Below are positions 40,061 through 59,641 of a stretch of DNA of 64,000 bases, in pieces. The stretch is from Aquipseudomonas guryensis. GTDB taxonomy: Bacteria; Pseudomonadota; Gammaproteobacteria; Pseudomonadales; Pseudomonadaceae. Every line of letters begins with the position of its first letter. Position 1 is the first letter of the stretch. Both the position numbers and the translations under genes were made by a program. The stretch is taken from positions 1 through 64,000 of the forward strand of contig NZ_JACJFN010000006.1 in the NCBI RefSeq assembly GCF_014164785.1, given 5' to 3'. The notes below the pieces were generated by a model that was not told where the DNA came from, made no database searches, and saw nothing but the letters and a program-made list of their open reading frames with translations.

Positions 40061-41250
40061 TGACCCAGGCTCAACCCCTGCCCTTGCGCCCGCTGGCAGA
40101 CAGCTCGCCATCGGCAGTCGTCGCCGGCTTCGTTGCCATGCTAACCGGCTACACCAGCTCGCTGGTGCTGATGTTCCAGGCCGGCCAGGCGGCCGGATTG
40201 AGTACTGCGCAGATTTCCTCCTGGCTGTGGGCCCTGTCGATCGGCATGGCGATCTGCACCATAGGCCTGTCGCTGCGCTACCGCGCACCGATCGTGGTGG
40301 CCTGGTCGACACCCGGCGCGGCGCTGCTGATCACCAGCCTGCCGGGGGTAACGTACCCGGAAGCCATCGGCGCCTTTGTCGTCTGCGCCCTGCTGCTCAG
40401 CCTGCTGGGCCTGTCCGGCGCCTTCGAGCGGGTCATGCGCCACCTGCCGGCCTCGCTGGCCGCAGCGCTGCTGGCCGGCATCCTGTTCCGCATCGGCAGC
40501 GAAATCTTTATCGCCGCGCAAAGCAACAGCCTGCTGGTGCTGGCCATGTTCTTCACCTTTCTGCTCGGCAAGCGCCTGCTGCCGCGTTATGCGGTGCCGG
40601 CGGCGCTGCTGGTCGGCGCAAGCGTGGCCGGTGTGCTGGGCCTGCTGGATTTCAGCCAGTTCGAGTGGCAAGTGGCAGTGCCGGTGTGGACCACACCGAG
40701 CTTCTCCTTCAGCGCGGTGATCAGCATCGGCATTCCGCTGTTCGTGGTGGCCATGGCCTCGCAGAACATCCCCGGGATTGCCGTACTGCGCGCCGATGGC
40801 TATGACGTTCCACCTTCGCCACTGATCTCCACCACCGGCATCGCCTCGCTGCTGCTGGCGCCATTCGGCTCCCATGGCATCAACCTGGCGGCCATCAGTG
40901 CGGCGATCTGCACCGGCGCCGAAGCCCACGAGGATCGGCACAAGCGCTACACCGCGGCGCTCTGGTGTGGGGTGTTCTATGGCGTCGCCGGGATATTCGC
41001 GGCGACTCTGGCCGCGCTGTTCGCCGCGTTACCGGCCGCCCTGGTGCTGTCCATCGCCGCCCTGGCCCTGCTCGGCTCCATCGGCAACGGCCTGGCCCAG
41101 GCCATGCAGAACCCTGGCGAGCGTGACGCCGCGCTGATCACCTTCATGGTCACCGCCTCGGGCATGACCCTCCTCGGTATCGGCTCGGCCTTCTGGGGTT
41201 TGATTGGCGGCGCGCTGACCCTGCTGATCCTCAACTGGCGCAAAACGTAG
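40060..41250 (+). CDS. BenE-family (benzoate/H+ symporter-like) transporter
   Basis: The 396-residue, 12-helix inner-membrane protein has the BenE-like features SSAVVAGFVAMLTGYTSSLV near the start, VAWSTPGAALL near residue 80 and ASQNIPGIAVLRADGY near 235. BenE members import benzoate or related compounds, though many lie outside aromatic pathways, as here. It is coupled to the LysE-type exporter. The stop codon falls inside REPIN 3. Confidence 0.92.
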   Translation: MTQAQPLPLRPLADSSPSAVVAGFVAMLTGYTSSLVLMFQAGQAAGLSTAQISSWLWALSIGMAICTIGLSLRYRAPIVVAWSTPGAALLITSLPGVTYPEAIGAFVVCALLLSLLGLSGAFERVMRHLPASLAAALLAGILFRIGSEIFIAAQSNSLLVLAMFFTFLLGKRLLPRYAVPAALLVGASVAGVLGLLDFSQFEWQVAVPVWTTPSFSFSAVISIGIPLFVVAMASQNIPGIAVLRADGYDVPPSPLISTTGIASLLLAPFGSHGINLAAISAAICTGAEAHEDRHKRYTAALWCGVFYGVAGIFAATLAALFAALPAALVLSIAALALLGSIGNGLAQAMQNPGERDAALITFMVTASGMTLLGIGSAFWGLIGGALTLLILNWRKT

Positions 41251-45914: not shown

Positions 45915-45960
45915 TGATGCGCATCAATACAGTGCGAAACCGGCTATTTGCGCACCGTAT
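45915..45960. promoter_or_regulatory. Dyads upstream of the transporter sigma-54 promoter
   Basis: A perfect 12-bp palindrome TGATGCGCATCA (45915-45926) is followed by inverted arms ATACAGTGCG / CGCACCGTAT (45927-45936 and 45951-45960). They lie 60-105 bp upstream of the -24/-12 element, where an NtrC-type activator would bind. They do not match the NtrC consensus well, so the role is a guess. Confidence 0.4.
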
Positions 45961-46019: not shown

Positions 46020-46036
46020 TTGGCCCGGCTCTTGCT
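46020..46036 (+). promoter_or_regulatory. Sigma-54 promoter of the nitrate transporter
   Basis: TTGGCCCGGCTCTTGCT has GG and GC spaced by 10 bases and matches the -24/-12 consensus at most positions. Transcription would begin near 46047, just ahead of the leader hairpins. Confidence 0.75.
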
Positions 46037-46046
46037 GTAGTACTGC

Positions 46047-46135
46047 CATAGGCATCCAAAGGCGGTTGCCCCAGATACGACAAAGGCGTCGCACTACCCC
46101 GCTAACTAGCGATCAGGTGGTGCGGCGCTTTTTGC
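46047..46135 (+). ncRNA. Candidate NasT-type leader/attenuator RNA of the nitrate transporter
   Basis: A stem with one mismatch at 46051-46070 carries the hexanucleotide loop AAAGGC (A at position 1, G at 4, as ANTAR proteins require). It is followed by a long attenuator hairpin: GACAAAGGCGTCGCACTACC against GGTGGTGCGGCGCTTTTT, with a nested CGCT/AGCG hairpin. Only one hexaloop hairpin is clear. The same GACAAAGGCG arm opens the attenuator in the nirB leader. Confidence 0.6.
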
Positions 46136-46201
46136 GTTTCAGCCCCAACGCATGGGGTGGGTCGACGGGCCGCGATCCGGACGTCGACCGGTAACTCTCT
46201 C

Positions 46202-46401
46202 AGAACCTGTTTACGATTTTCTGGACTAGAGCCAGACAAGGCACAACGACCAACGGGAGTAACAGCCGGAAGGCTGGCCCGAAGGGTGAGCGCTAGCGAA
46301 TCAAGCAGCCGAGAAAGCGCAGTTTACGAGCTGTAAATGAGCATTTCGAGGCTGCTTTTAACGCGGGATGGCCGACGGCCAGGAGATCGTAAATAGGTAC
46401 T
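46202..46401. mobile_element. MITE-like element, about 200 bp
   Basis: The ends are imperfect inverted repeats AGAACCTGTTTACGAT and ATCGTAAATAGGTACT (14 of 16 positions match). There is no ORF inside. An internal GTTTACGA (46322) repeats part of the end. It sits between the attenuator and the transporter gene. Target duplication is not evident. Confidence 0.5.
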
Positions 46402-46534
46402 CAATCTGGCTGTGGCTTCGGCCGCAGGGTTGGGCGCCACAAGCGCCTGGCTCCCCCGGCAACTGCAGGCGACGTGCCCACGATCACGGCAACCTGCAGC
46501 CTGCCGGGACTCTCTTTTGCTGACGAGGTGTTGG

Positions 46535-47746
46535 ATGAATACAAGTTTCTGGAAAGCCGGCCACGCACCGACGCTGTTCGCCGCATTCCTCTATTTCGAC
46601 CTGAGCTTCATGGTCTGGTACGTGCTCGGCCCGATGGGTGTGCAGATTGCCACCGACCTGGGCCTGACCACCCAGCAACGCGCCATGATGGTGGCCACGC
46701 CGATCCTGGCGGGTGCCGTACTGCGCTTCCTGATGGGCCTGCTGGCTGACCGCACATCGCCAAAGACCGCCGGCCTGATTGGCCAGGTCATTGTCATCGC
46801 CGCCCTCGCAGTGGCCTGGCTGCACGGCATCCATAGCTACGAGCAAGCCCTGCTGCTCGGTCTGTTCCTCGGCTTCGCCGGTGCTTCCTTCGCCGTCGCC
46901 CTGCCGCTGGCTTCGCAGTGGTATCCGCCGCAGCACCAGGGCAAGGCCATGGGCATCGCCGGCGCCGGCAACTCCGGCACCGTGCTCGCCGCCCTGTTCG
47001 CCCCTGGCCTGGCCGCCATGTTCGGCTGGAGCAACGTGTTCGGCCTGGCCCTGATCCCGCTGGTGCTGACGCTGATCATCTTCGCCACGGTAGCGCGCAA
47101 CGCCCCGGAACGTCCGCCGGTGAAATCCATGGCCGACTACCTCAAGGCCCTGGGCGACCGCGACAGCTGGTGGTTCATGTTCTTCTACAGCGTGACCTTC
47201 GGCGGCTTCCTCGGCCTGGCCAGCACCCTGCCCGGCTACTTCCATGACCAGTACGGCTTCGACCCAGTCAAGGCTGGCTACTACACCGCCGCCTGCGTAT
47301 TCGCCGGCAGCCTGATGCGTCCGCTCGGCGGCGCCCTGGCCGACCGCATCGGCGGCATCCGCTCGCTGCTGGTGATGTACACCTGCGCCTCGATCTGCAT
47401 CGCCGCCGTCGGCTTCAACCTGCCCAGCTCGCTGGCCGCCCTGGCCCTGTTCGTGGTCGCCATGCTCAGCCTGGGTGCCGGCAACGGCGCGGTGTTCCAG
47501 CTGGTGCCGCAACGCTTTCGCAAGGAAATCGGCGTGATGACCGGTTTGATCGGCATGGCCGGCGGCATCGGTGGCTTCTGTCTGACCGCCGGGCTCGGCG
47601 CGATCAAGCAGTCCACTGGTTCCTACCAGCTCGGCCTGTGGCTGTTCGCCAGCCTGGGCATCCTGGCCTGGGTCGGCCTGTACGGCGTCAAGCTGCGCTG
47701 GCGCACTACCTGGGGCAGCGCAGCAGTAACTGCCGCCCGCGTATAA
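46535..47746 (+). CDS. MFS nitrate/nitrite transporter (NarK/NasA type)
   Basis: The product has 403 residues from the ATG at 46535 (GAGG upstream); the open frame starts earlier. Twelve membrane helices are present. The nitrate-porter motifs are recognisable: GFAGASFAVALPLASQWYPP near residue 110, GIAGAGNSGTVLAALFAPG near 140 and GNGAVFQLVPQRF near 320. It imports nitrate for assimilation. Context (sigma-54 promoter, NasT-type leader, nasA downstream) supports an assimilatory role. Confidence 0.94.
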   Translation: MNTSFWKAGHAPTLFAAFLYFDLSFMVWYVLGPMGVQIATDLGLTTQQRAMMVATPILAGAVLRFLMGLLADRTSPKTAGLIGQVIVIAALAVAWLHGIHSYEQALLLGLFLGFAGASFAVALPLASQWYPPQHQGKAMGIAGAGNSGTVLAALFAPGLAAMFGWSNVFGLALIPLVLTLIIFATVARNAPERPPVKSMADYLKALGDRDSWWFMFFYSVTFGGFLGLASTLPGYFHDQYGFDPVKAGYYTAACVFAGSLMRPLGGALADRIGGIRSLLVMYTCASICIAAVGFNLPSSLAALALFVVAMLSLGAGNGAVFQLVPQRFRKEIGVMTGLIGMAGGIGGFCLTAGLGAIKQSTGSYQLGLWLFASLGILAWVGLYGVKLRWRTTWGSAAVTAARV

Positions 47747-49610: not shown

Positions 49611-49715
49611 GCCAACGCACCACAACAGCGCGACTTGCTTTATAGGGGTGCGCCAGAGGCGCCCAGAGTCCCCGAAAAATCACTGGAAGCCCCTGAAAAT
49701 CAGATATCTACAGAG

Positions 49716-49732
49716 TTGGCATGCTGCCTGCT
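49716..49732 (+). promoter_or_regulatory. Sigma-54 promoter of the nirB-nasA-cobA operon
   Basis: TTGGCATGCTGCCTGCT matches the -24/-12 consensus with GG-N10-GC. A start near 49743 would place the two leader hairpins at the 5' end of the transcript. A partial dyad at 49645-49664 could be an activator site. Confidence 0.8.
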
Positions 49733-49762
49733 TTAGAGAGATCGACAGTACATAAAAGCACT

Positions 49763-49849
49763 GCCTTCAACGTAGAAGGCGCTGCTTCCCGACAGATCGG
49801 GGCAGGACAAAGGCGTCCTCGCTAGGCAACTAGCGGGACGCCTTTTTTG
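49763..49849 (+). ncRNA. ANTAR (NasT)-target leader RNA with attenuator
   Basis: Hairpin P1 is GCCTTC-AACGTA-GAAGGC and P2 is CCCG-ACAGAT-CGGG, extended by CTGC/GCAG. Both loops have six bases with A at position 1 and G at position 4, the ANTAR signature. A terminator follows at once (AAAGGCGTCC...CTAGCGGGACGCC with TTTTTT, 49809-49849). This is the arrangement of NasR/NasT-controlled transcription attenuation in nitrate-assimilation operons. The NasS/NasT genes are not in the window. Confidence 0.82.
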
Positions 49850-49958: not shown

Positions 49959-51212
49959 ATGAAAAAACTCAAGCTGGTAATGGTTGGCAACGGTATGGCC
50001 GGCGTGCGGACGCTGGAGGAGCTGCTCAAGCTCGCTCCCGACCTCTACGACATCACCGTGTTCGGGGCCGAGCCGCACCCGAACTACAACCGCATCCTGC
50101 TCTCGCCAGTATTGGCCGGCGAACAGAGCTTCGAGGAAATCGTCCTCAATGGCCTCGACTGGTACCTCGACAACAACATCGAGCTGCGCCTGGGACGCAA
50201 GGTGGTCAGCATCGACCGCAAGAAGCGCGTAGTTACCGCCGACGACGGCAGCACGGCCGAATACGACCGCCTGATCCTGGCCACCGGCTCCAATCCCTTC
50301 ATCCTGCCGGTGCCGGGCAACCGCCTGGAAGGCGTGATCGCCTACCGCGACATCGCCGACACCGAGAAAATGATGGAAACCGCTCGCACCCACAGCCATG
50401 CCGTGGTCATCGGTGGCGGCCTGCTCGGCCTGGAGGCGGCCAACGGCCTGCGCCAGCGCGGCATGGACGTGACCGTGGTGCACCTCTCCGAGTGGTTGCT
50501 CGAGCGGCAACTGGACAAGACCGCCGGCAAGCTGCTGCAACAGGCTCTGGAGGCCCGCGGCATCCACTTCCGCCTGAGCGAGCAGACCGAGGAGCTGCAG
50601 GACTACGGCAACGGCCGCGTCTGCGCCGTGCAGTTCAAGAGCGGTGACGTGATCCCCGCCGACCTGGTGGTGATGGCCGCCGGCATCCGTCCCAACACCG
50701 AACTGGCCGAGAAGAGCGGCATCCCGTGCAACCGCGGCATCCTGGTCGACGACTGCCTGCAAACCTACGACCCACGCATCTATGCGGTCGGCGAGTGCGC
50801 CAATCACCGTGGCATCGCCTACGGCCTGGTCGCCCCGCTGTTCGAACAGGCCAAGGTCTGCGCCAATCACCTGGCCATGCTCGGCACCGCGCGTTACCAG
50901 GGCTCGGTGACCTCGACCAAGCTCAAGGTGACCGGCATCGACCTGTTCTCCGCCGGCGACTTCATGGGCGCCGAAGGCACCGAGACCATCACCCTCTCCG
51001 ACCCCATCGGCAGCGTGTACAAGAAGCTGGTGATCAAGGACGACGTGCTGGTCGGTGGCTGCCTGTACGGCGACACCCTGGACGGCGGCTGGTACTTCCA
51101 GCAGATCTGCGGCGCAGCCGATATCAGCCAGGTGCGCGATCACCTGATGTTCGGCCAGGCCAGTATCGATGCGGCAAACGCCAGCGCAGCCAAGGATACC
51201 GCCCGTGCCTGA
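49959..51212 (+). CDS. NirB-type NAD(P)H/FAD oxidoreductase without the haem domain (NasB-like)
   Basis: The product has 417 residues from the ATG at 49959 (AGGAG 9 bases upstream; another ATG three codons earlier). It contains the FAD module LVMVGNGMAGVRTLEELLKL, the NADH-binding VVIGGGLLGLEAANGLRQRG near residue 149, and the rubredoxin-reductase-like C-terminus of NirB. It lacks the BFD-like and sulphite/nitrite reductase haem domains that make NirB about 850 residues, and no nirD follows. It probably passes electrons from NADH to the nitrate reductase encoded next. A nitrite reductase must lie elsewhere. Confidence 0.9.
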   Translation: MKKLKLVMVGNGMAGVRTLEELLKLAPDLYDITVFGAEPHPNYNRILLSPVLAGEQSFEEIVLNGLDWYLDNNIELRLGRKVVSIDRKKRVVTADDGSTAEYDRLILATGSNPFILPVPGNRLEGVIAYRDIADTEKMMETARTHSHAVVIGGGLLGLEAANGLRQRGMDVTVVHLSEWLLERQLDKTAGKLLQQALEARGIHFRLSEQTEELQDYGNGRVCAVQFKSGDVIPADLVVMAAGIRPNTELAEKSGIPCNRGILVDDCLQTYDPRIYAVGECANHRGIAYGLVAPLFEQAKVCANHLAMLGTARYQGSVTSTKLKVTGIDLFSAGDFMGAEGTETITLSDPIGSVYKKLVIKDDVLVGGCLYGDTLDGGWYFQQICGAADISQVRDHLMFGQASIDAANASAAKDTARA

Positions 51213-53952
51213 CCTCAGCCTGCAACCCATCATGGCTCCGGCCACCCAGCACACCGCCGCCACCTGCTGCTACTGCGGCGTCGGCTGCGGCGTGCTGATC
51301 GAGCATGACGGCGAGAAGATCCTCGGCGTCCAGGGCGACCCGAATCACCCCGCCAACTTTGGCAAACTGTGCAGCAAGGGCTCGACCCTGCACCTGACCG
51401 GTGACCTCGATGCCCGCGCGCTCTACCCCGAGCTGCGCCTGGGCAAGGGCCTGGCCCGCTCGCGCACGGACTGGGACAGCGCCCTGGATCACGCCGCCAA
51501 TGTATTCGCCGAGACCATCCGCGAGCACGGCCCGGACAGCGTGGCCTTCTACATCTCCGGCCAGCTGCTGACCGAGGACTACTACGCCTTCAACAAGCTG
51601 GCCCGTGCCCTGGTCGGCACCAACAACATCGACAGCAACTCGCGCCTGTGCATGTCCTCGGCCGTGGTCGGTTACAAGCGCAGCCTGGGTGCCGACGCCC
51701 CGCCGTGCAACTACGAGGACATCGAGCAGGCCGACTGCCTGCTGATCGCCGGCAGCAACATGGCCTACGCCCACCCGATCCTGTTCCGCCGACTGGAAGC
51801 GGCCAAGGCCGCACGCCCGGAGATGAAGATCATCGTCGTCGACCCACGGCGCACCGACACCTGTGACCTGGCCGACCTGCACCTGGCGATCCTGCCGGGC
51901 ACCGATGTGGCGCTGTTCCACGGCATCCTGCACATCCTCATGTGGGAAGGCTGGGTCGACCACGCCTACATCACCGCCCACACCGAAGGCTTCGAGGCCC
52001 TGAAGAGCCTGGTACGCGAATTTACCCCGACAGCCGTCGCCGATATCTGCGGCATTGCCCAGGCCGACCTGCTGCGCGCCGCCGAGCTGATCGGCAAATC
52101 GCCGGCGTTCCTCTCGCTGTGGTGCATGGGCCTCAACCAGTCCAGCGCAGGCAGCGCCAAGAACAGCGCGCTGATCAACCTGCACCTGGCCACCGGGCAG
52201 ATCGGCAAGGTCGGCGCCGGCCCGTTCTCCCTCACTGGCCAACCGAATGCCATGGGCGGCCGCGAGACCGGCAGCCTGAGCAACCTGCTGCCGGGCCACC
52301 GCGAGGCCGGCAACCCCGAGCACCGCGCCGAAGTCGCCCGCTACTGGGGCGTCGACAGCCTGCCGGACAGCCCTGGCCTGACCGCCGTCGAGCTGTTCGA
52401 GGCGGTGCGCGTCGGCCAGATCAAAGCCCTGTGGATCGCCTGCACCAACCCGGCCCAATCGCTGCCGGACCAGCAGAAAATCCATGAGGCCCTGGCCACC
52501 TGCCCCTTCGTGGTGGTGCAGGAAGCCTTCTTCACCACCGAAACCTGCCACTACGCCGACCTTCTGCTCCCGGCCGCCAGCTGGGGCGAAAAAGAAGGCA
52601 GCGTGACCAACTCCGAGCGGCGCATTACCCATGTGCGCCGCGCCGTGCCAGCGCCCGCAGAGGCGCGGCCGGATTGGGCGATCACCTGTGATTTCGCCCG
52701 TCGTCTGGAACAACTGCTCCGCCCCGGCCTGCCCAGCCTGTTCACCTTCCTCAGCAGCGAAGCGCTGTTCGAGGAATACAAACACCTGACCAGCAATCGC
52801 GACCTCGACCTGTCCGGTCTGAGCTACGCGATCCTGGATAACCAAGGTCCGCAACAATGGCCCTTCCCGGCCGGCGCCCAGCAGGGCACCGCGCGGCTGT
52901 ACGAGAATGGCCACTTTCCTACCGCCAGCGGGCGCGCGCAGTTCGTTGCCGACCCGTACTGCGCGGGCAAGGAGAAGCGCGATACGCGCTATCCGCTACT
53001 GCTCAACACCGGCCGCCTGCGTGACCAATGGCACGGCATGAGCCGCACCGGCACCGCCGCGCGCCTGTTCGGCCACGCCGAGGAGGCCGTGCTCAGCCTG
53101 CACCCGGATGAACTGCGCCGACGCAGCCTGCAGACTGGCGAACTGGTCACCTTGCGCAGCCGCCGCGGCGAGCTGAGCCTGCCGGTACAGGCCGACGAAA
53201 ACGTGCGCCCCGGCCAGGCCTACCTGCCGATGCACTGGGGCAATCGCTTCCTCAAGGGTCTGGGCACCAACGTGCTGACCCAGCCGGCCTTCGACCCGCT
53301 GTCCAAACAGCCGGAGCTCAAGCTCAGCGGTGTCGAAGTGAGCAAGGCCGAGCTGCCCTGGCAGTTCTTCGCCCTGGTCGAAGGCGACGTGCAGCACCGC
53401 TTCCAGGCGCTGCGCCCGCTGTTCGAGTCCTTCACCTACGCCAGCCTGACCCTCACTGGCCGCGAGCGCCCGGCCCTGCTGATCAAGGCCGCCAGCGGTG
53501 AGGCGCCGCCCGCCGAATTGCTGGCACAGATCGACGCCCTGCTGGCGGTCGACGCTGGCCCGGTGCTGGCCTACGACGATCCACGGCGCACTGTGGGCAA
53601 GCGCGTGCGCATCGAGGACGGGCGCATCGTCAGCATCCGCTTGGCCGGCGAAACCGCCGCCCGCGACTGGCTGAAAGGCCTGTGGAACGACGGCCAGGCC
53701 GACGCCGACCTGCGCCGCTGGCTGCTCGCCCCGCTGTCCACCCCGCCTGGCAGCGACGGCAAGAAGCTCAGCAAGACCCTTTGCAACTGCCTGAACGTCA
53801 GCCAGGACGCGGTGTGCGCCGGCATCGCCCGCGGCCTAGACCTGAACGGCCTCAAGCAGGAGCTGAAATGCGGCACCAGCTGCGGCTCCTGCGTACCGGA
53901 AATCAAACGTCTGCTGGCGACCCACGTCGTGCCAGCAGTAGCGACTGCCTGA
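51205..53952 (+). CDS. nasA: Assimilatory nitrate reductase, catalytic subunit
   Basis: The 915-residue molybdopterin enzyme has a GTG start (AAGGA upstream) overlapping the oxidoreductase by 8 bases. An N-terminal 4Fe-4S site, CCYCGVGCGVLIEHDG with GKLCSKG, is followed by Mo-bisMGD domains (LLTEDYYAFNKLARALVG, LTGQPNAMGGRETGSLSNLL) and the C-terminal molydop-binding domain. It ends with a BFD-like 2Fe-2S domain (CNCLNVSQDAVCAGIA and CGTSCGSC) that probably receives electrons. It reduces nitrate to nitrite in the cytoplasm. Confidence 0.96.
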   Translation: MPDLSLQPIMAPATQHTAATCCYCGVGCGVLIEHDGEKILGVQGDPNHPANFGKLCSKGSTLHLTGDLDARALYPELRLGKGLARSRTDWDSALDHAANVFAETIREHGPDSVAFYISGQLLTEDYYAFNKLARALVGTNNIDSNSRLCMSSAVVGYKRSLGADAPPCNYEDIEQADCLLIAGSNMAYAHPILFRRLEAAKAARPEMKIIVVDPRRTDTCDLADLHLAILPGTDVALFHGILHILMWEGWVDHAYITAHTEGFEALKSLVREFTPTAVADICGIAQADLLRAAELIGKSPAFLSLWCMGLNQSSAGSAKNSALINLHLATGQIGKVGAGPFSLTGQPNAMGGRETGSLSNLLPGHREAGNPEHRAEVARYWGVDSLPDSPGLTAVELFEAVRVGQIKALWIACTNPAQSLPDQQKIHEALATCPFVVVQEAFFTTETCHYADLLLPAASWGEKEGSVTNSERRITHVRRAVPAPAEARPDWAITCDFARRLEQLLRPGLPSLFTFLSSEALFEEYKHLTSNRDLDLSGLSYAILDNQGPQQWPFPAGAQQGTARLYENGHFPTASGRAQFVADPYCAGKEKRDTRYPLLLNTGRLRDQWHGMSRTGTAARLFGHAEEAVLSLHPDELRRRSLQTGELVTLRSRRGELSLPVQADENVRPGQAYLPMHWGNRFLKGLGTNVLTQPAFDPLSKQPELKLSGVEVSKAELPWQFFALVEGDVQHRFQALRPLFESFTYASLTLTGRERPALLIKAASGEAPPAELLAQIDALLAVDAGPVLAYDDPRRTVGKRVRIEDGRIVSIRLAGETAARDWLKGLWNDGQADADLRRWLLAPLSTPPGSDGKKLSKTLCNCLNVSQDAVCAGIARGLDLNGLKQELKCGTSCGSCVPEIKRLLATHVVPAVATA

Positions 53953-53962
53953 GGAGATGACC

Positions 53963-54700
53963 ATGAGCGCAAAAGTCTGGCTGGTAGGCGCAGGCCCTGG
54001 TGATCCGGACCTGCTGACCCTCAAGGCGGTGAAAGCCCTCAACCAGGCCGAGATCGTGATGATCGACGACCTGGTCAACCCGGCCGTGCTGGAGCACTGC
54101 CCGGATGCGCGCATCGTCCCGGTGGGCAAGCGCGGCGGCTGCCGTTCCACTCCGCAGGCCTTCATCCACCGCCTGATGCTGCGCTACGCGCGCCAGGGCA
54201 AGTGCGTGGTGCGCCTGAAAGGCGGCGACCCGTGCATCTTTGGCCGGGGTAGCGAAGAAGCCGACTGGCTAGCCGAGCACGGCATCGAAGTGGAAATGGT
54301 CAACGGCATCACCGCCGGCCTGGCCGGTGCCACCAACTGCGGCATCCCCCTGACCCTGCGCGGCGTGGCCCGCGGCGTGACCCTGGTCACCGCCCACACC
54401 CAGGACGACAGCAGCCTCAACTGGCCGGCCCTGGCGCAGAGCGGCACCACCCTGGTGGTGTACATGGGTGTGGCCAAGCTGCCGGACATCCGTGAAAGCC
54501 TGCTGGCCGGCGGCATGCGCGCCGACATGCCGGTGGCGATGATCGAGAACGCCTCGCTGCCCCACCAGCGCGAGTGCCGCAGCAGCCTGGCGAGCATGCA
54601 ACAGGACGCCCACGACTTTCAGCTCAAGAGCCCGGCGATCCTGGTGATCGGTGAAGTGGCCGCGCAGCAACAGATTCACGCTTTGGCAGAGATTGCCTAA
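53963..54700 (+). CDS. cobA: Uroporphyrinogen-III C-methyltransferase
   Basis: The product has 245 residues from the ATG at 53963, with GAGGAG 6 bases before it. The SAM-dependent tetrapyrrole methyltransferase signature VGAGPGDPDLLTLKAVKAL lies at the N-terminus and VRLKGGDPCIFGRGSEEADW near residue 80. It methylates uroporphyrinogen III to precorrin-2 for sirohaem, the cofactor of nitrite reductase, explaining its place 10 bases after nasA. It is monofunctional, lacking the CysG dehydrogenase/ferrochelatase part. Confidence 0.95.
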   Translation: MSAKVWLVGAGPGDPDLLTLKAVKALNQAEIVMIDDLVNPAVLEHCPDARIVPVGKRGGCRSTPQAFIHRLMLRYARQGKCVVRLKGGDPCIFGRGSEEADWLAEHGIEVEMVNGITAGLAGATNCGIPLTLRGVARGVTLVTAHTQDDSSLNWPALAQSGTTLVVYMGVAKLPDIRESLLAGGMRADMPVAMIENASLPHQRECRSSLASMQQDAHDFQLKSPAILVIGEVAAQQQIHALAEIA

Positions 54701-54819: not shown

Positions 54820-55770
54820 TCACTCAGCGCTGGCCCAATACCAGACGGTAGCCCCCCAAGACGATCCCTTGAACTCCGGCATGGTCTCGCCCTGGGTGAA
54901 ATGACGCCGCGAGTTGTGCTGGGCCGGGCTGAACCAGTAACCGGTTTGGGGGCAGGACTGGCCTGCGTGCACCGGGCCAGGGGTATTGTGCTTGGGTGTG
55001 TTGTTGCGCGCATAGGCGACCAGATCCTTGGGGTAGACCATATGGTCGATCTGGCTGTCATCGATATTGTAAAGATAGGCGATGGCACCAGCCTCGAAGG
55101 CCCAATAGCCAACATAGCTACCCTCATCGCCGTCTATGTCTAGATGACTGTCATGCCAATTGGTCTGAAGATCAGCAAAGGCCGAATACCACTGATTGCA
55201 GTACTGCTTCAGTAGAGCGGATGCTTCTTCTGGCGTAGGGGCATAAATGGCCTGGATCAGTGGCGTATAGAGATCGTGATACCACTCGTCTAGGTCAGAG
55301 CGATTGGGGAGCACCTTGCGCAACAGGTCTTCATAAAGGGTGTCATCACGAGCGTATCCGGCGTTGTCCAGCAGGGCGACGAAACGCTGTAACAGGTCTG
55401 TGCGATGCAGCAGGATGCACAAACTTATCACCTGCACACACTCTTCATATTCCCCTGGCCAGTCGTCGATGGCCAATGGCGATATATCAGGTATCTGCTC
55501 CTGGACTGCCAGGGCATGCTGATAAGTCTCGTAATCCTTGATCAGCTGCTCCAAACGTGTGGGCAGGGCCTCAATAGGATCGCCAGCGGTATAGCAGATA
55601 AACAAGCCATCCAAGGTCGCATCTTTAAAGTGCGCTGCACGCAGGGCTAGCTCTTGCTCCGGGGTGTCGGACTCCATTTTCCGGTTCGCCCAGCGATCAG
55701 GCGTTTCATCAAAGAAGGTAATGGCTGCCCGGTAGTAAGATTCGGTGATGAAGGGTTGGCGCCTATTCAT
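54820..55770 (-). CDS. PoNi-like immunity protein (DUF1910/DUF1911 type)
   Basis: The 316-residue soluble helical protein resembles PoNi immunity proteins: RRQPFITESYYRAAITFFDE at the N-terminus and WYSAFADLQTNWHDSHLDID with GYWAFEAGAIAYLYNIDDS near residues 195-245. A C-terminal extension (GQSCPQTGYWFSPAQHNSRR, GATVWYWAS) is of a type found attached to other type VI-associated immunity proteins. Its ATG overlaps the stop of the upstream toxin by 4 bases. It is expected to neutralise that DNase. Confidence 0.85.
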   Translation of the reverse strand: MNRRQPFITESYYRAAITFFDETPDRWANRKMESDTPEQELALRAAHFKDATLDGLFICYTAGDPIEALPTRLEQLIKDYETYQHALAVQEQIPDISPLAIDDWPGEYEECVQVISLCILLHRTDLLQRFVALLDNAGYARDDTLYEDLLRKVLPNRSDLDEWYHDLYTPLIQAIYAPTPEEASALLKQYCNQWYSAFADLQTNWHDSHLDIDGDEGSYVGYWAFEAGAIAYLYNIDDSQIDHMVYPKDLVAYARNNTPKHNTPGPVHAGQSCPQTGYWFSPAQHNSRRHFTQGETMPEFKGSSWGATVWYWASAE

Positions 55771-57338
55771 ACAGAGGCCTTTTCGAGTTGCAGAGTGGGC
55801 TGCTCGCCATACTTCTTGGCCAGAGCGGTTTTTCGCTTATTTACGGCGATACGAATCTCTTCTTCCCCATAGTGGAAAGCCTGATGATCGCTGTGGCTTT
55901 TTTCTGAGTGATTCTTCAGTCGTGCCTCGGCGTGCTTGCTGGGGCTTTGGCTGGGGTGATAAAGGGGGGTATAGAAGAGATGACGGCTATAAGAGCTCAA
56001 TATACTGTCGCGGAGCACGCGGTTATTTAGAGATTTCAGGTTGTTCCTGATCCAGTCGCGACTCATTTGCACCAAAATTCGGCTTTTCTTGCTGGTGCTG
56101 GTTGAGTCGGCCGTTTTTCCCGCGCCCCCTGTTTTCCCACTGGCTTTGCTTTTCTTCTTTTCGGGGCTTTTCCCTGCTGTTGACTCTTCTTCTCGCGGCT
56201 CCAAGAGCTCGCTGGCGTCAGTGATGCCGGAAGTTCCCAGCTTTGAGGTGATGCTCGGCTTGCGTGTTGTGTTCGGCTTGCGCAGGAATTTTGGGGCATC
56301 TTCATTCTTGCTTGCTTTGGCCTCCACAATGGCAAAAAGCTTATTGTCGTTTTGATCTGGATCGGCACGCCAGATGGCATCTATTCCAGTACCGTTTGCC
56401 CCGTCGGTGAGTTTATAAAGTACATGTGGAGTTTTGGGGCTACCTCCCTTCGATAGCTTGCCCAGTTTGGTCGCGCTGGGTTTACCCTTTTGCCATCTGC
56501 CCTCGACGCCCTTGTCATGGCCGTCCCAGTCTTTTCCCCAACCCAGCTTATATGCGCAGATATAGTCGGCGATGTGTTCGCCGCTGACGCCGAGCCCTTC
56601 ATTGCTTAGATCAGGCAGTGCCTGTTGCCCGAGTGTCGCATTGTCAGCTTTTTGGGCGGCGGTTCCGCGGCCACCGTCTTTACCTTCGGCGGCGACATTA
56701 CGGTCTTTGCCTGCTGGTTTTTTCTGCTCTGCGGGGTTGCTGCTACCGGTGGCCGAAGCGGAGCTATTACGTTGCATTCGTTTCCATTTGTTCAAGCGTT
56801 TCTCAACGATGCCGACCATCATCGGCATCTGATCACGCGATGTAGCCAGTACGGTGAGCACGGCTGACTGGAGAAGTCTGGGGAGACTTTGAAAGGCCGA
56901 AGATCCCTTCACACCAGCAATAATTTCGTCGAGTTCGGATCGCAGTGCAGAGGCGTTGAAGATATCGGACAGCAACTCTTCGGGGCTGGTCTTAATACCG
57001 CACTCTGCCAGTACGAAGCGCAGAAGATCGAAGAGTACTGGAGCAAAGCGCTCGGGATCCTTGTTGACGATACGTAGGCTCTTTTTTACTCCGTCACCCG
57101 GACCTGGCACCCAACCTACAATGGCTAATAGCAGATCGAACTGGGCATCTTCCGTATGCGCAGGCGTATCGGCGTTATAGAGATGTACTGCTGATTCGAT
57201 CGTGTCGTAGGCATCGACGGCCTGCCCCAAGAAAGGAACGGCCCCCAAGGCAATGCCTGCCGCCAGCTCTATCAATGCCTCTTCGTAGGCTGCCTGGCGC
57301 TCGAGTTCTTCCTTGCTTTTGGTTGTTGCCTTACTCAT
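55767..57338 (-). CDS. PoNe-like PD-(D/E)xK DNase effector (type VI)
   Basis: The 523-residue protein has an N-terminal helical region with a small-residue hydrophobic stretch (LIELAAGIALGAVPFLGQAV, residues 22-41) and a low-complexity Ser/Ala/Lys/Gly linker at about 190-230. The nuclease domain is centred on GIDAIWRADPDQNDNK and LFAIVEAKASK (Asp near 320, E-A-K near 338), the PD-(D/E)xK core seen in PoNe DNases. A second Lys/Ser-rich linker follows at 375-405, then a C-terminal helical part. GC content is clearly below the neighbouring core genes. ATGA overlaps link it to vgrG and the immunity gene. Confidence 0.85.
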   Translation of the reverse strand: MSKATTKSKEELERQAAYEEALIELAAGIALGAVPFLGQAVDAYDTIESAVHLYNADTPAHTEDAQFDLLLAIVGWVPGPGDGVKKSLRIVNKDPERFAPVLFDLLRFVLAECGIKTSPEELLSDIFNASALRSELDEIIAGVKGSSAFQSLPRLLQSAVLTVLATSRDQMPMMVGIVEKRLNKWKRMQRNSSASATGSSNPAEQKKPAGKDRNVAAEGKDGGRGTAAQKADNATLGQQALPDLSNEGLGVSGEHIADYICAYKLGWGKDWDGHDKGVEGRWQKGKPSATKLGKLSKGGSPKTPHVLYKLTDGANGTGIDAIWRADPDQNDNKLFAIVEAKASKNEDAPKFLRKPNTTRKPSITSKLGTSGITDASELLEPREEESTAGKSPEKKKSKASGKTGGAGKTADSTSTSKKSRILVQMSRDWIRNNLKSLNNRVLRDSILSSYSRHLFYTPLYHPSQSPSKHAEARLKNHSEKSHSDHQAFHYGEEEIRIAVNKRKTALAKKYGEQPTLQLEKASV

Positions 57339-59641
57339 TCCAGCCTCCCTGCTGCTGCTTTGATCAAGTGCTGCAGATCCACATTGGCCGGATCTAGGCC
57401 AAGCTTGCGCAAATCATCGTTTATGTCTCGATCCGTGACCTGGAGGGTTTTGATGGAGCCTCTGGTATAGGGGCGAGGATCTTCTCCGTAATGAACTTTG
57501 GCGGGGCCTGGCGGCACATCCTCCAATCGAGCAAAGCCTCGCTTATCCAGTATCCCTTCACGTACCGACCCATCACTGAATTCGACACGGTAAGCAGCCT
57601 CTGGCACAGGTTCGAGATTCGGGTAGTGCAGGTTCAGTTCGAGCCAGGAGCTGTTTTTCTTGGCGCTTTCCAGCAGATTGCCCGCTTTGCTGGTATCGGC
57701 TTGCAGCATTGCTCCAGGCAGTAGGATGGCGATGCCGCTACCCACGCCCGGCGCCCCACCCGAGTTGATCTTGATCATCGCCCCGCTCAGGGTCACACCA
57801 CCCGGATCGAGCTTGAGCCAGCTGCCGCCACCCTTGGCGGTGAGCTCCATGCCGGCCTCGATCACCACCTTGCTGCCGGCGTGGTAGTGGATTTCGTTGC
57901 CGGCCTCGGTGAACTGGGCCGAGCCCAGTTTGATGTGCTGAGTGCTTGCTACTGTGAGGTGGTCATTGCTGCGTGCCTCGACCTTGCGGTCTGCGTGGGT
58001 GATGCGGTGTTCCTCGGCCTTCAGTTCGGTGTAGCTGTTGGCCTCGACCGTGTCGTGGCGCTCGTGGCCGATGCGGATCCTCTGGTCGTTTTCGACGTTT
58101 TCGTCCCAGTCTTTCTGCGCGTGCAAGTAGATTTGTTCCTGGCCCTTGCGGTCCTCGAAGCGCAGTTCGTTGTAGCCGCCGCCACCGGGGGAGCTGAGGG
58201 TCTTGAACACGCTGCGGGTCTTGTTCGCCGGCAGGTCATAGGGCACCACGTGCTCGGCGTGGTACAGACAGCCGGTGAGCAGCGGTTGGTCGGGATCGCC
58301 TTCAAGGAAGGTGATCAGTACCTCCATGCCGACCCGCGGGATGGCGATGCCGCCGTAGCGGTCGCCGGCCCAGCTGCTGGCCACGCGCAGCCAGCAGCTG
58401 GTCTTGTCGTCGGCCTGGCCCTCGCGGTCCCAGTGGAACTGCACCTTCACCCGACCGTACTGGTCGCAGTGGATCTCCTCGCCTTTGGGGCCGGTGACCA
58501 CGGCCGTCTGGCTGCCGAGCACTTTAGGCTTGGCATGTTGCAGGGCCGGGCGGAATGGATCGGCCCAGCGCGTGGCGCTGAAGCGATTTCGGTAGCCCTG
58601 CTGGAAATCCTCACCATCCAGCATCTGGCCGGCCCGGCTGCCACCGATGAAGTCAGTCACCGACTCTTCCAGCACCTGCGGCTGCTTGCCTTCGTGCCAT
58701 ACCTCACGTAGCAGCCACAGGTCATTCAATGCTGCGCTGGGGTGCTGCTGCAGGCTGAGGAAGTGGCCACAGGCCAGGTACGCATCGCTCTTGCCGTCGG
58801 CCTGGGTGTAGTCGCTGCGCAGGCGCTCCAGGGCGCGCTTGGCCAGATGTTTGCCGCGTTCGCGCTCAGTGAAGCGGCCGGGGAAATCGTAGACCTCCAG
58901 GCTGGGCTGGAAAGCGCTGCTCTGGGTGGCTTGCAGGGTCAGGCGCGGCTTCTCGAAATCGTAGTCGCGGTAGCTGGCCTGAGTACTGCGCGTGGCCAGG
59001 CGCACGTTGAACGCACGGACTACCGCATGTTCGGCTGCCAGGCCGCTGTCCTGCTGGTAGTTGAGCGGCGGCAGCTTGCGGAACACCGTCTGGTCGTCAC
59101 CAAACACCAGTGCATGGACATTCGCGCTGTGCTGGAAGTGAAAGCTGATGCCCTCCTCTTCGCACAGGCGCTGAATGAAGTGCAGGTCGGATTCGTCGTA
59201 CTGAGTGCAATAGTCGCGCGCGGGATAGACGCTGCCGAGCTGGAACTTGTAGGCGCCCTGTTGGATGCCGTGCTCCTCGAGCAGTTGCGCGATGATCTGC
59301 GGCACGCTCAGTTGCTGGAAGATGCGCTGGTTGTAGCGATGTTGCAGGTAGGCCAGCTGCGGTCTAAGGCTGATGTTGTAACGGGTCAGGCGCCTGCCGG
59401 AATCACCCTGTTCGATGGCGTAGACCAGGCCATGCACACCGCCTCCAGCGGGGCCGAAGGCGAGAAAGGCCGGCTGATTGAGCAGCGCTTGCAGATCCAG
59501 CTGCGAGTCCTGGCTGACCAGATCAATACTGAACTCATACGGCTGGTTGAGCTCCTCGCGGCCCTCGAACGCCAGTACCTGCAGGTCGCTGGCGATACCC
59601 TGAATGCTCAGGGAAATAAGCGTTTGATTGGCATCCCTCAC
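57335..59641 (-). CDS. vgrG: Type VI secretion system spike protein VgrG
   Basis: The 768-residue protein has a GTG start with AGGAGG 7 bases upstream. The gp27-like part is at residues 1-380 (YCTQYDESDLHFIQRLCEEE near 150), the gp5 OB-fold at about 395-470 (GPKGEEIHCDQYGRVKVQFH, SCWLRVASSWAGDRYGG) and the beta-helix at about 500-640. A C-terminal extension at about 665-768 (YRVEFSDGSVREGILDKRGF) resembles a small beta-sandwich used for effector docking. No PAAR or adaptor gene is adjacent, so the effector may bind this extension directly. Confidence 0.95.
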   Translation of the reverse strand: MRDANQTLISLSIQGIASDLQVLAFEGREELNQPYEFSIDLVSQDSQLDLQALLNQPAFLAFGPAGGGVHGLVYAIEQGDSGRRLTRYNISLRPQLAYLQHRYNQRIFQQLSVPQIIAQLLEEHGIQQGAYKFQLGSVYPARDYCTQYDESDLHFIQRLCEEEGISFHFQHSANVHALVFGDDQTVFRKLPPLNYQQDSGLAAEHAVVRAFNVRLATRSTQASYRDYDFEKPRLTLQATQSSAFQPSLEVYDFPGRFTERERGKHLAKRALERLRSDYTQADGKSDAYLACGHFLSLQQHPSAALNDLWLLREVWHEGKQPQVLEESVTDFIGGSRAGQMLDGEDFQQGYRNRFSATRWADPFRPALQHAKPKVLGSQTAVVTGPKGEEIHCDQYGRVKVQFHWDREGQADDKTSCWLRVASSWAGDRYGGIAIPRVGMEVLITFLEGDPDQPLLTGCLYHAEHVVPYDLPANKTRSVFKTLSSPGGGGYNELRFEDRKGQEQIYLHAQKDWDENVENDQRIRIGHERHDTVEANSYTELKAEEHRITHADRKVEARSNDHLTVASTQHIKLGSAQFTEAGNEIHYHAGSKVVIEAGMELTAKGGGSWLKLDPGGVTLSGAMIKINSGGAPGVGSGIAILLPGAMLQADTSKAGNLLESAKKNSSWLELNLHYPNLEPVPEAAYRVEFSDGSVREGILDKRGFARLEDVPPGPAKVHYGEDPRPYTRGSIKTLQVTDRDINDDLRKLGLDPANVDLQHLIKAAAGRLE

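Follow-up and report, generated by a model that had tools for sequence, protein, structure and literature searches.

A P11-family leader with probable NtrC and NasT control before nitrate-use genes of Aquipseudomonas guryensis

How are the nitrate-use genes behind the leader at 49705-49848 switched on in Aquipseudomonas guryensis? The stretch of DNA analysed here, referred to as the window, is 64,000 nucleotides long. A preliminary description of it had proposed a dual control, with NtrC-dependent initiation at a sigma54 promoter and nitrate-responsive antitermination in the leader by a NasT-like protein. This proposal was supported by the score of the leader as a P11 RNA, by the NasS, NasT and NtrC genes of the genome, and by the control reported for nirBD/nalA. 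A P11 leader with two locks, NtrC/sigma54 initiation and NasT antitermination in response to nitrate, is therefore our main reading, and we give it a probability of about 0.88. We are less sure of which hairpins NasT uses than of the dual control itself.

A P11-family leader and the genes behind it

The leader is a member of the known P11 family, and the dual-control system is already known and not new. With the covariance model, the match in the window scored 110 bits compared to a gathering cut-off of 70 bits and covered the full model (positions 1-139). Coordinates of all features are given in Table 1. Relatives were taken from 148 genomes of the family, in which 109 same-strand P11 matches were kept; the other 3 of the 112 P11 rows were antisense matches at these terminators and were left out.

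Table 1. Positions of the features discussed. Positions are those of the window unless a locus label (L011, L012) precedes them.
Feature	Position	Strand	Details
NtrC-like dyad of the narK leader, CGCATCAATACAGTGCG	45920-45936	+	at -101 of the narK leader
Sigma54 element of the narK leader, TGGCCCGGCTCTTGC	46021-46035	+
narK leader	46022-46133	+	includes Rfam narK RNA (RF03032, 46022-46092); 68.8 bits, cut-off 43.2
P1 loop of the narK leader, AAAGGC	46058-46063		one U.U mismatch in stem
P2 of the narK leader, CGAC[AAAGGC]GUCG	46078-46091		lies in terminator arm
Terminator T tract of the narK leader	46129-46133
NarK-family nitrate/nitrite MFS transporter	46412-47746	+	TIGR00886, 316.3 bits, cut-off 311.7; start uncertain
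NtrC-like dyad of the P11 leader, CGCACCACAACAGCGCG	49616-49632	+	candidate site; score 7/9; 101 bp upstream of the -24 TGG
P11 leader (Rfam RF00625)	49705-49842	+	E 4.4e-23
Sigma54 -24/-12 promoter, TGGCATGCTGCCTGC	49717-49731	+	GG-N10-GC
Hairpin H1	49756-49787	+	hexaloop AACGTA, 49769-49774 (A1, G4); 7-bp stem
Hairpin H2	49787-49802	+	hexaloop ACAGAT, 49792-49797 (A1, G4); 5-bp stem; proposed spacer helix
Hairpin H3, GGAC[AAAGGC]GUCC	49805-49818	+	third A1/G4 hexaloop; 4 pairs; overlaps terminator
Intrinsic terminator	49809-49848	+	terminator 49809-49845; T tract 49843-49848
NirB-like FAD/NAD(P)H oxidoreductase	49959-51212	+	417 aa; no siroheme half; predicted start
Molybdopterin oxidoreductase, nitrate reductase type	51169-53952	+	BFD-like [2Fe-2S] tail; below NCBIfam cut-offs; start may lie downstream
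cobA, uroporphyrinogen-III C-methyltransferase	53957-54700	+
nasT (REC-ANTAR)	L011:9781-10359		same strand as nasS, directly downstream of it
nasS (NMT1_2-type)	L011:10381-11619
Porin gene	L012:4149-5528		contig C5; behind NasT-type leader
Double-PilJ protein gene	L012:5603-6385		contig C5; behind NasT-type leader

The near-consensus -24/-12 element of the preliminary description is present. By the start rule for sigma54 promoters, transcription would begin near 49743, which is upstream of all the hairpins. The form TGG[CT]-N8-TGC was found in all 109 P11 matches, a count that is partly circular because the P11 model itself covers the promoter. Such motifs are common: TGGC-N8-TGC occurs 50 times in the window compared to 25 times in shuffles, and a stricter sigma54 form with one mismatch occurs 3 times compared to 2.5 times. 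Since the motif is no rarer than chance in the window, the sigma54 element by itself was dropped as evidence.

The operon had been described as nirB-nasA-cobA. The cobA gene and a gene of the nitrate reductase type stood up to analysis, whereas the "nirB" encodes only the FAD/NADH half, with a product that covers positions 1-407 of the 794 of TIGR02374 and scores below its cut-off. In this, the operon differs from the one behind the Pseudomonas nirBD leader. Rather than reducing nitrite, the FAD half may feed the nitrate reductase. NIR_SIR (siroheme reductase) domains are encoded at other places, on contigs C4, C5 and C2 of the genome. Right after cobA, on the minus strand at 54820-59641, lie genes for a PoNi-type immunity protein, for a 523-aa protein that matched nothing in Pfam, and for a VgrG-like type VI secretion spike.

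We take P11 to be the nalA leader of nirBD, the leader that Romeo 2012 treated in P. aeruginosa and Nie 2024 in P. putida; our literature search found no paper joining the two names. The P11 leaders of Pseudomonas, presumably nalA, belong to the same covariance family and have the same place before nitrate/nitrite genes. According to PMC8092218 and PMC12830290, one of them a review, which credit Romeo 2012 and Nie 2024 for the control of nirBD/nalA, the operon nirBD-PA1779-cobA, or the leader nalA, is under sigma54, NtrC and NasT.

Rfam lists P11 as type Gene, and a terminated transcript would be about 106 nt long, so another possible explanation is that P11 is a free-standing sRNA acting in trans. 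Downstream genes were matched to proteins of the own genome in 50 P11 and 49 narK loci (58 further P11 loci were taken with too little flank). In 50 of the 50 P11 loci checked, P11 stands on the same strand before nitrate-pathway genes, with the NirB-like FAD gene or cobA as the first downstream reference match (in two, at 37% identity). This position speaks against an sRNA, as do the design that P11 has in common with the narK leaders and the antitermination reported for nalA. A purely trans-acting P11 sRNA was thus rejected on its cis position and the reported antitermination, and we regard the sRNA explanation as very improbable; the terminated RNA may have a trans effect besides.

NasS, NasT and NtrC

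The genome (4.29 Mb, 7 contigs) was checked for nasS and nasT, and both were found, on another contig (C2). NasT, a REC-ANTAR protein, is the one ANTAR protein of the genome. An NtrC gene was also found, at 799 bits compared to a cut-off of 559. By hand count, NasT has R70, Q72, D123 and R140, and an R at 127. R70, Q72, D123 and R140 correspond to c-di-GMP contacts in P. putida NasT, where position 127 is K.

Leaders and ANTAR genes occur together. Among the 148 family genomes, an ANTAR gene was found in 112 of the 113 with a P11 or narK leader and in 2 of the 35 with neither; these counts are of ANTAR proteins, of which a part was checked as NasT. Deletion of nasT in P. putida led to loss of nitrate use (PMC7261876). 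In Paracoccus, nitrate dissociates NasS-NasT, and NasT binds the nasA leader (PMC3795266). The Paracoccus denitrificans NasT-nasA system has the same NasS-NasT pair, and growth on nitrate depends on its leader hairpin; unlike here, NtrC reportedly acts on the expression of nasT (PMC5424462 and PMC3795266).

Three hairpins and the distance between them

Two hexaloops, AACGTA and ACAGAT, each with A1 and G4, and an attenuator with a T tract had been described for the leader, and all were found as described. A third A1/G4 hexaloop, that of H3, had been overlooked. Pair changes were counted in a P11 alignment of 24 of the 30 distinct segments; the six omitted mostly have an odd H2, and the counts for H2 therefore lean to its regular form. 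Double changes were seen at 3 of the 5 pairs counted in H1, at 5 of 16 in the terminator and at 1 pair in H2. H1 with at least 2 pairs was found in 105 of the 109 P11 matches, canonical H1 being absent from the other 4, and with at least 3 pairs in 96 of 108; the T tract was found in 109 of 109. An explanation by chance, in which nothing counts but the sigma54 promoter and a constitutive terminator, could draw on the frequency of sigma54-like matches alone in the window. It is contradicted by the fold of the leader RNA (-52.5 kcal/mol, z = -8.3 compared to 200 dinucleotide shuffles), the covariation of H1, the conservation in 109 matches and the link to ANTAR genes, and we give it almost no credence.

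H3 was present in all 109 P11 matches, a number partly built in because the search model covers H3. The loop and 3' arm of H3 are the first ten bases of the terminator 5' arm (49809-49818 are common to both) and, therefore, H3 and the terminator are mutually exclusive. When growing transcripts were folded in silico, H1, H2 and H3 formed up to 49830, and the terminator replaced H3 from 49840. H3 is invariant within the 24-sequence P11 alignment, and thus its support comes from comparison between leader types. We compared 162 leaders of both Rfam families, all of which matched a search pattern that fixes H3 pairs 1 and 3 and A1/G4. Pair 4 was G-C in 108, C-G in 44, A-T in 2 and G-T in 1, and 7 leaders had it unpaired. 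At pair 2, 150 had A-T, 3 had G-C and 9 an A.C mismatch. The two leader types differ in the outer pair, one with G-C and the other with C-G. Since the 5' arm of H3 is outside the terminator stem, these pair swaps favour a real H3 hairpin. The A1 and G4 of the H3 loop AAAGGC are also demanded by its pairing with GCCUUU in the terminator.

The A1/G4 form of H2 is less constant. At its position, the 109 P11 relatives have an A1/G4 hexaloop in 62 cases, another helix in 31 and no helix in 12; the 4 without canonical H1 were left unassessed. The A1/G4 H2 is thus missing from 47 of 109. Among the 73 six-base H2 loops, A1 was found in 62, G4 in 70 and A5 in 71, with positions 2, 3 and 6 variable and 13 different A1/G4 loops. 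From these sequences, the H2 loop still looks selected for ANTAR binding.

The distance between the H1 and H3 loops suggests what H2 may do. In 105 P11 leaders, the raw distance ranged from 25 to 60 nt, and the 10 leaders without an intervening helix had 25-26 nt directly. Where the raw distance was at least 30 nt (73 distinct linkers), removal of the folded linker helix gave a mean of 24.9 nt and reduced the standard deviation from 5.1 to 3.2, compared to a mean of 6.1 and a lowest value of 4.1 in 200 sets of shuffled linkers. This effective spacing was 22-27 nt in 59 of the 73 linkers, whereas the 200 shuffled sets gave 24.5 on average and 35 at most. Even the longest, the 8 distinct linkers of 51-60 nt, mostly landed on 24-28 nt (6), with one on 29 and one on 36. 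The misfits were L106 (36 nt), L149 (34 nt) and L095 (31 nt). Ten of the 105 leaders, that of the window included, came to 17-19 nt since their linkers fold with more pairs than H2 alone; the leader of the window has 18 nt by fold and 24 nt if only the 16-nt H2 is removed. The spacing is a strong pattern and not proof, because the shuffles permuted single letters and the leaders, being related, do not give independent counts.

A similar distance is known from the eutP target of EutV, in which A29 to A53 gives 24 nt between loops (PMC3369931). Shortening or lengthening of the eutP linker sharply reduced or abolished control, according to the EutV sources, PMC8934654 among them. Ramesh 2012 describes targets with two A1/G4 hexaloops on stems of at least 3 bp, which H1, H2 and H3 all have in the window; with a second hairpin that overlaps the terminator, as H3 does and H2 does not; and with a short linker (5-12 nt in E. 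faecalis eut), into which H1 and H3 fit only with H2 folded. The targets of EutV, NasR and AmiR have the same A1/G4 hexaloops and a second hairpin that excludes the terminator, whereas P11 mostly has an inserted helix, usually with an A1/G4 loop of its own (PMC3369931, PMC7496416 and PMC8934654). We take H2 as a probable spacer, which in many leaders carries an ANTAR-type loop itself. The terminator-excluding hairpin is H3, and H1 and H2 are probably not the operative pair.

Within the dual control, two variants give H2 a larger part. NasT could bind H1 and H2 as the canonical pair, with H3 a by-product of the terminator. The H1-H2 loop distance in the window, 23 nt, is close to the 24 nt of eutP, A1, G4 and A5 of the H2 loop are conserved among otherwise variable positions, and a model trained on narK leaders weakly fits H1-H2 as a pair (49761-49802, 10.4 bits, E 0.085). 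Yet 47 relatives have no A1/G4 H2, and in 10 of these H1 and H3 stand alone at 25-26 nt; H2 does not overlap the terminator, and the outer pair of H3 is swapped between leader types. All this weighs against the variant, which we think doubtful. As the general operative pair, H1-H2 was rejected on account of the missing loops.

NasT could also be recruited on H1-H2 and then passed to H3, a relay that is compatible with a spacer role of H2 and that we consider possible, although unlikely. All three loops in the window are A1/G4, 62 of 109 relatives keep the A1/G4 H2, and a hand-off from a recruitment to an antitermination hairpin is proposed for EutV in PMC8934654. The H2-H3 loop distance poses a difficulty, being 17-18 nt in nearly all P11 leaders with 2 nt between the stems in the window; a eutP linker cut to 3 nt caused a drastic loss. 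Because many relatives have no such H2 loop, a relay cannot be general.

With H1 and H3 as the preferred pair, we infer the following course of events in this strain. When nitrogen is short, phosphorylated NtrC bound upstream would drive sigma54 polymerase to start near 49743. The transcript would halt at the terminator unless NasT binds the RNA, and nitrate or nitrite would free NasT from NasS. NasT would most likely grip H1 (AACGTA) and H3 (GGAC[AAAGGC]GUCC). Since H3 is made of the terminator 5' arm, holding it closed would prevent the terminator. The folded H2 spacer would set H1 and H3 at the distance that an ANTAR dimer needs, and its A1/G4 loop, found in most relatives having H2, may be an extra NasT contact. 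Read-through would allow the FAD protein, the nitrate reductase and CobA to be expressed.

The narK RNA leader and a wider regulon

A second leader, which includes the Rfam narK RNA, lies 3.7 kb upstream of the P11 promoter. Its P1 and P2 hexaloops are 24 nt apart; the Rfam model pairs P1 only. Between this leader and the transporter gene, at 46200-46412, is an interspersed repeat of about 205 bp, with 56 matching pieces in the genome including itself, one of them just downstream of nasT. The narK sample comprised 50 loci from the matches listed, namely the 30 best and 20 hand-picked second copies, from which L066 was dropped on an orientation test. The model behind these matches covers the promoter and P2, which builds in part of their conservation. 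An alignment of 37 of the 44 distinct segments (the filter removed L060, L062 and L070) showed 38 double changes in P1 and 1 in P2, compared to 7.4 in shuffles for both together, and P2 was paired in 90% of cells. An MFS transporter followed in 29 of 29 of the best loci, and the 20 further loci were followed by a nitrate reductase in 9, a transporter in 5 and NasS in 6. The literature search found no paper on narK RNA or RF03032.

The narK-type model was then used on the own genome and found four leaders at 52 to 33 bits, scores that are partly by construction since the model was trained on all four; the next match had 22.5 bits. These leaders precede the MFS transporter, nasS-nasT, a nitrate ABC transporter (TIGR01183 and TIGR01184, above cut-off) and a porin, and P11 makes five. 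With the Rfam narK model, whose cut-off is 43.2 bits, the porin leader scored 38.2 bits (E 1.9e-5), the nasS leader 34.7 (E 1.3e-4), and the nrt leader 21.8 (E 0.13), after two places on contig C1. A pattern search returned 7 places, 4 of them the leaders, and the reversed pattern returned 0. The nasS-nasT leader (L011:11660-11737, contig C2) has a sigma54 element and hexaloops. With a leader of its own before nasS-nasT, NasT may control its own operon.

P11 and narK RNA both have a sigma54 element, an A1/G4 first hairpin and a hexaloop hairpin in the terminator arm, and they occur in the same pathway and genomes; narK RNA has two hairpins whereas P11 has three. The P11 leader scored 17.3 bits on the Rfam narK model, below the 43.2 cut-off; it works like narK RNA and is not a member. 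The narK-trained model placed its P2 half on H3 (49803-49818) at 14.9 bits, below a chance-like match at 40368 in the window with 15.9 bits.

Upstream regions were scanned for the NtrC consensus TGCAC-N7-GTGCA. The best dyad match lay at -99 to -103 from the -24 TGG in 17 of 30 P11 and 17 of 28 narK regions, compared to about 0.5 expected in each set from even positions, and by eye at -80/-81 in 7 further P11 regions. A dyad score of at least 7 was reached in 28 of 30 P11 regions (shuffled mean 7.0, maximum 13) and in 7 of 28 narK regions (shuffles 6.6), so that narK is enriched in position only; both counts depend on the consensus used. In the own genome, the P11, narK and porin leaders have an NtrC-like dyad, the last at -102. 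The scan found no NtrC-like site around the nasS leader, and the nrt leader has one only at -225. NtrC sites of P. stutzeri are described as two GC elements 11 nt apart (PMC8443478), and the dyads here fit this form.

The porin and double-PilJ genes are a possible new member of the NasT regulon. The porin is an outer-membrane protein of 409 aa with a predicted barrel (pLDDT 74.5), and its model matches OprD/Occ porins (best 3szv, E 3.5e-14, TM 0.62); in Pfam it matches only Alginate_exp, below cut-off. It is 89% identical to its counterpart in Pseudomonas MAGs. The second protein, probably periplasmic, has two PilJ stretches (PF13675), a domain of nitrate-sensor type. Among PDB sequences, this protein matched only 6gcv (E 0.0046), which is the domain of McpN that binds nitrate, and the R of NLSGMQRMLSQ aligns with R61 of McpN, which contacts nitrate (PMC6381276). 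The structure model of this protein is weak (pLDDT 65), with P. aeruginosa PilJ as the best fold match (E 0.009, TM 0.25). With the narK-type model, a leader was found in front of the porin gene in 34 of 80 loci, and a stricter pattern gave 33. These 80 loci were the best of 224, two of them beginning inside the gene. Pseudomonas oryzagri has a second leader copy before a second PilJ gene (L206:3791-3834).

What this analysis adds to the known system is a third A1/G4 hexaloop, the view of H2 as a spacer, the grouping of P11 and narK RNA into one class, and the porin-PilJ pair; none of the four was found in print in a search that key primary papers lay outside. Our wider proposal, toward which we lean only somewhat, is that P11 is a three-hairpin ANTAR switch whose middle helix of about 12 to 31 nt spaces H1 and H3 at about 25 nt, and that P11 and narK RNA form one class serving a genome-wide NtrC-NasT regulon that includes nasST and the porin-PilJ pair. 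This would suggest a mechanism for the Rfam narK RNA and argues against P11 as a free sRNA. It predicts that the porin and PilJ-protein gene pair is nitrate-inducible. The natural variants, with no, a short, a hexaloop or a long middle helix, offer a ready-made experiment on how an ANTAR dimer measures distance. For the organism, the leader is a switch of a known type, by which the nitrate-use genes would be turned on under nitrogen shortage with nitrate present and would otherwise stay off.
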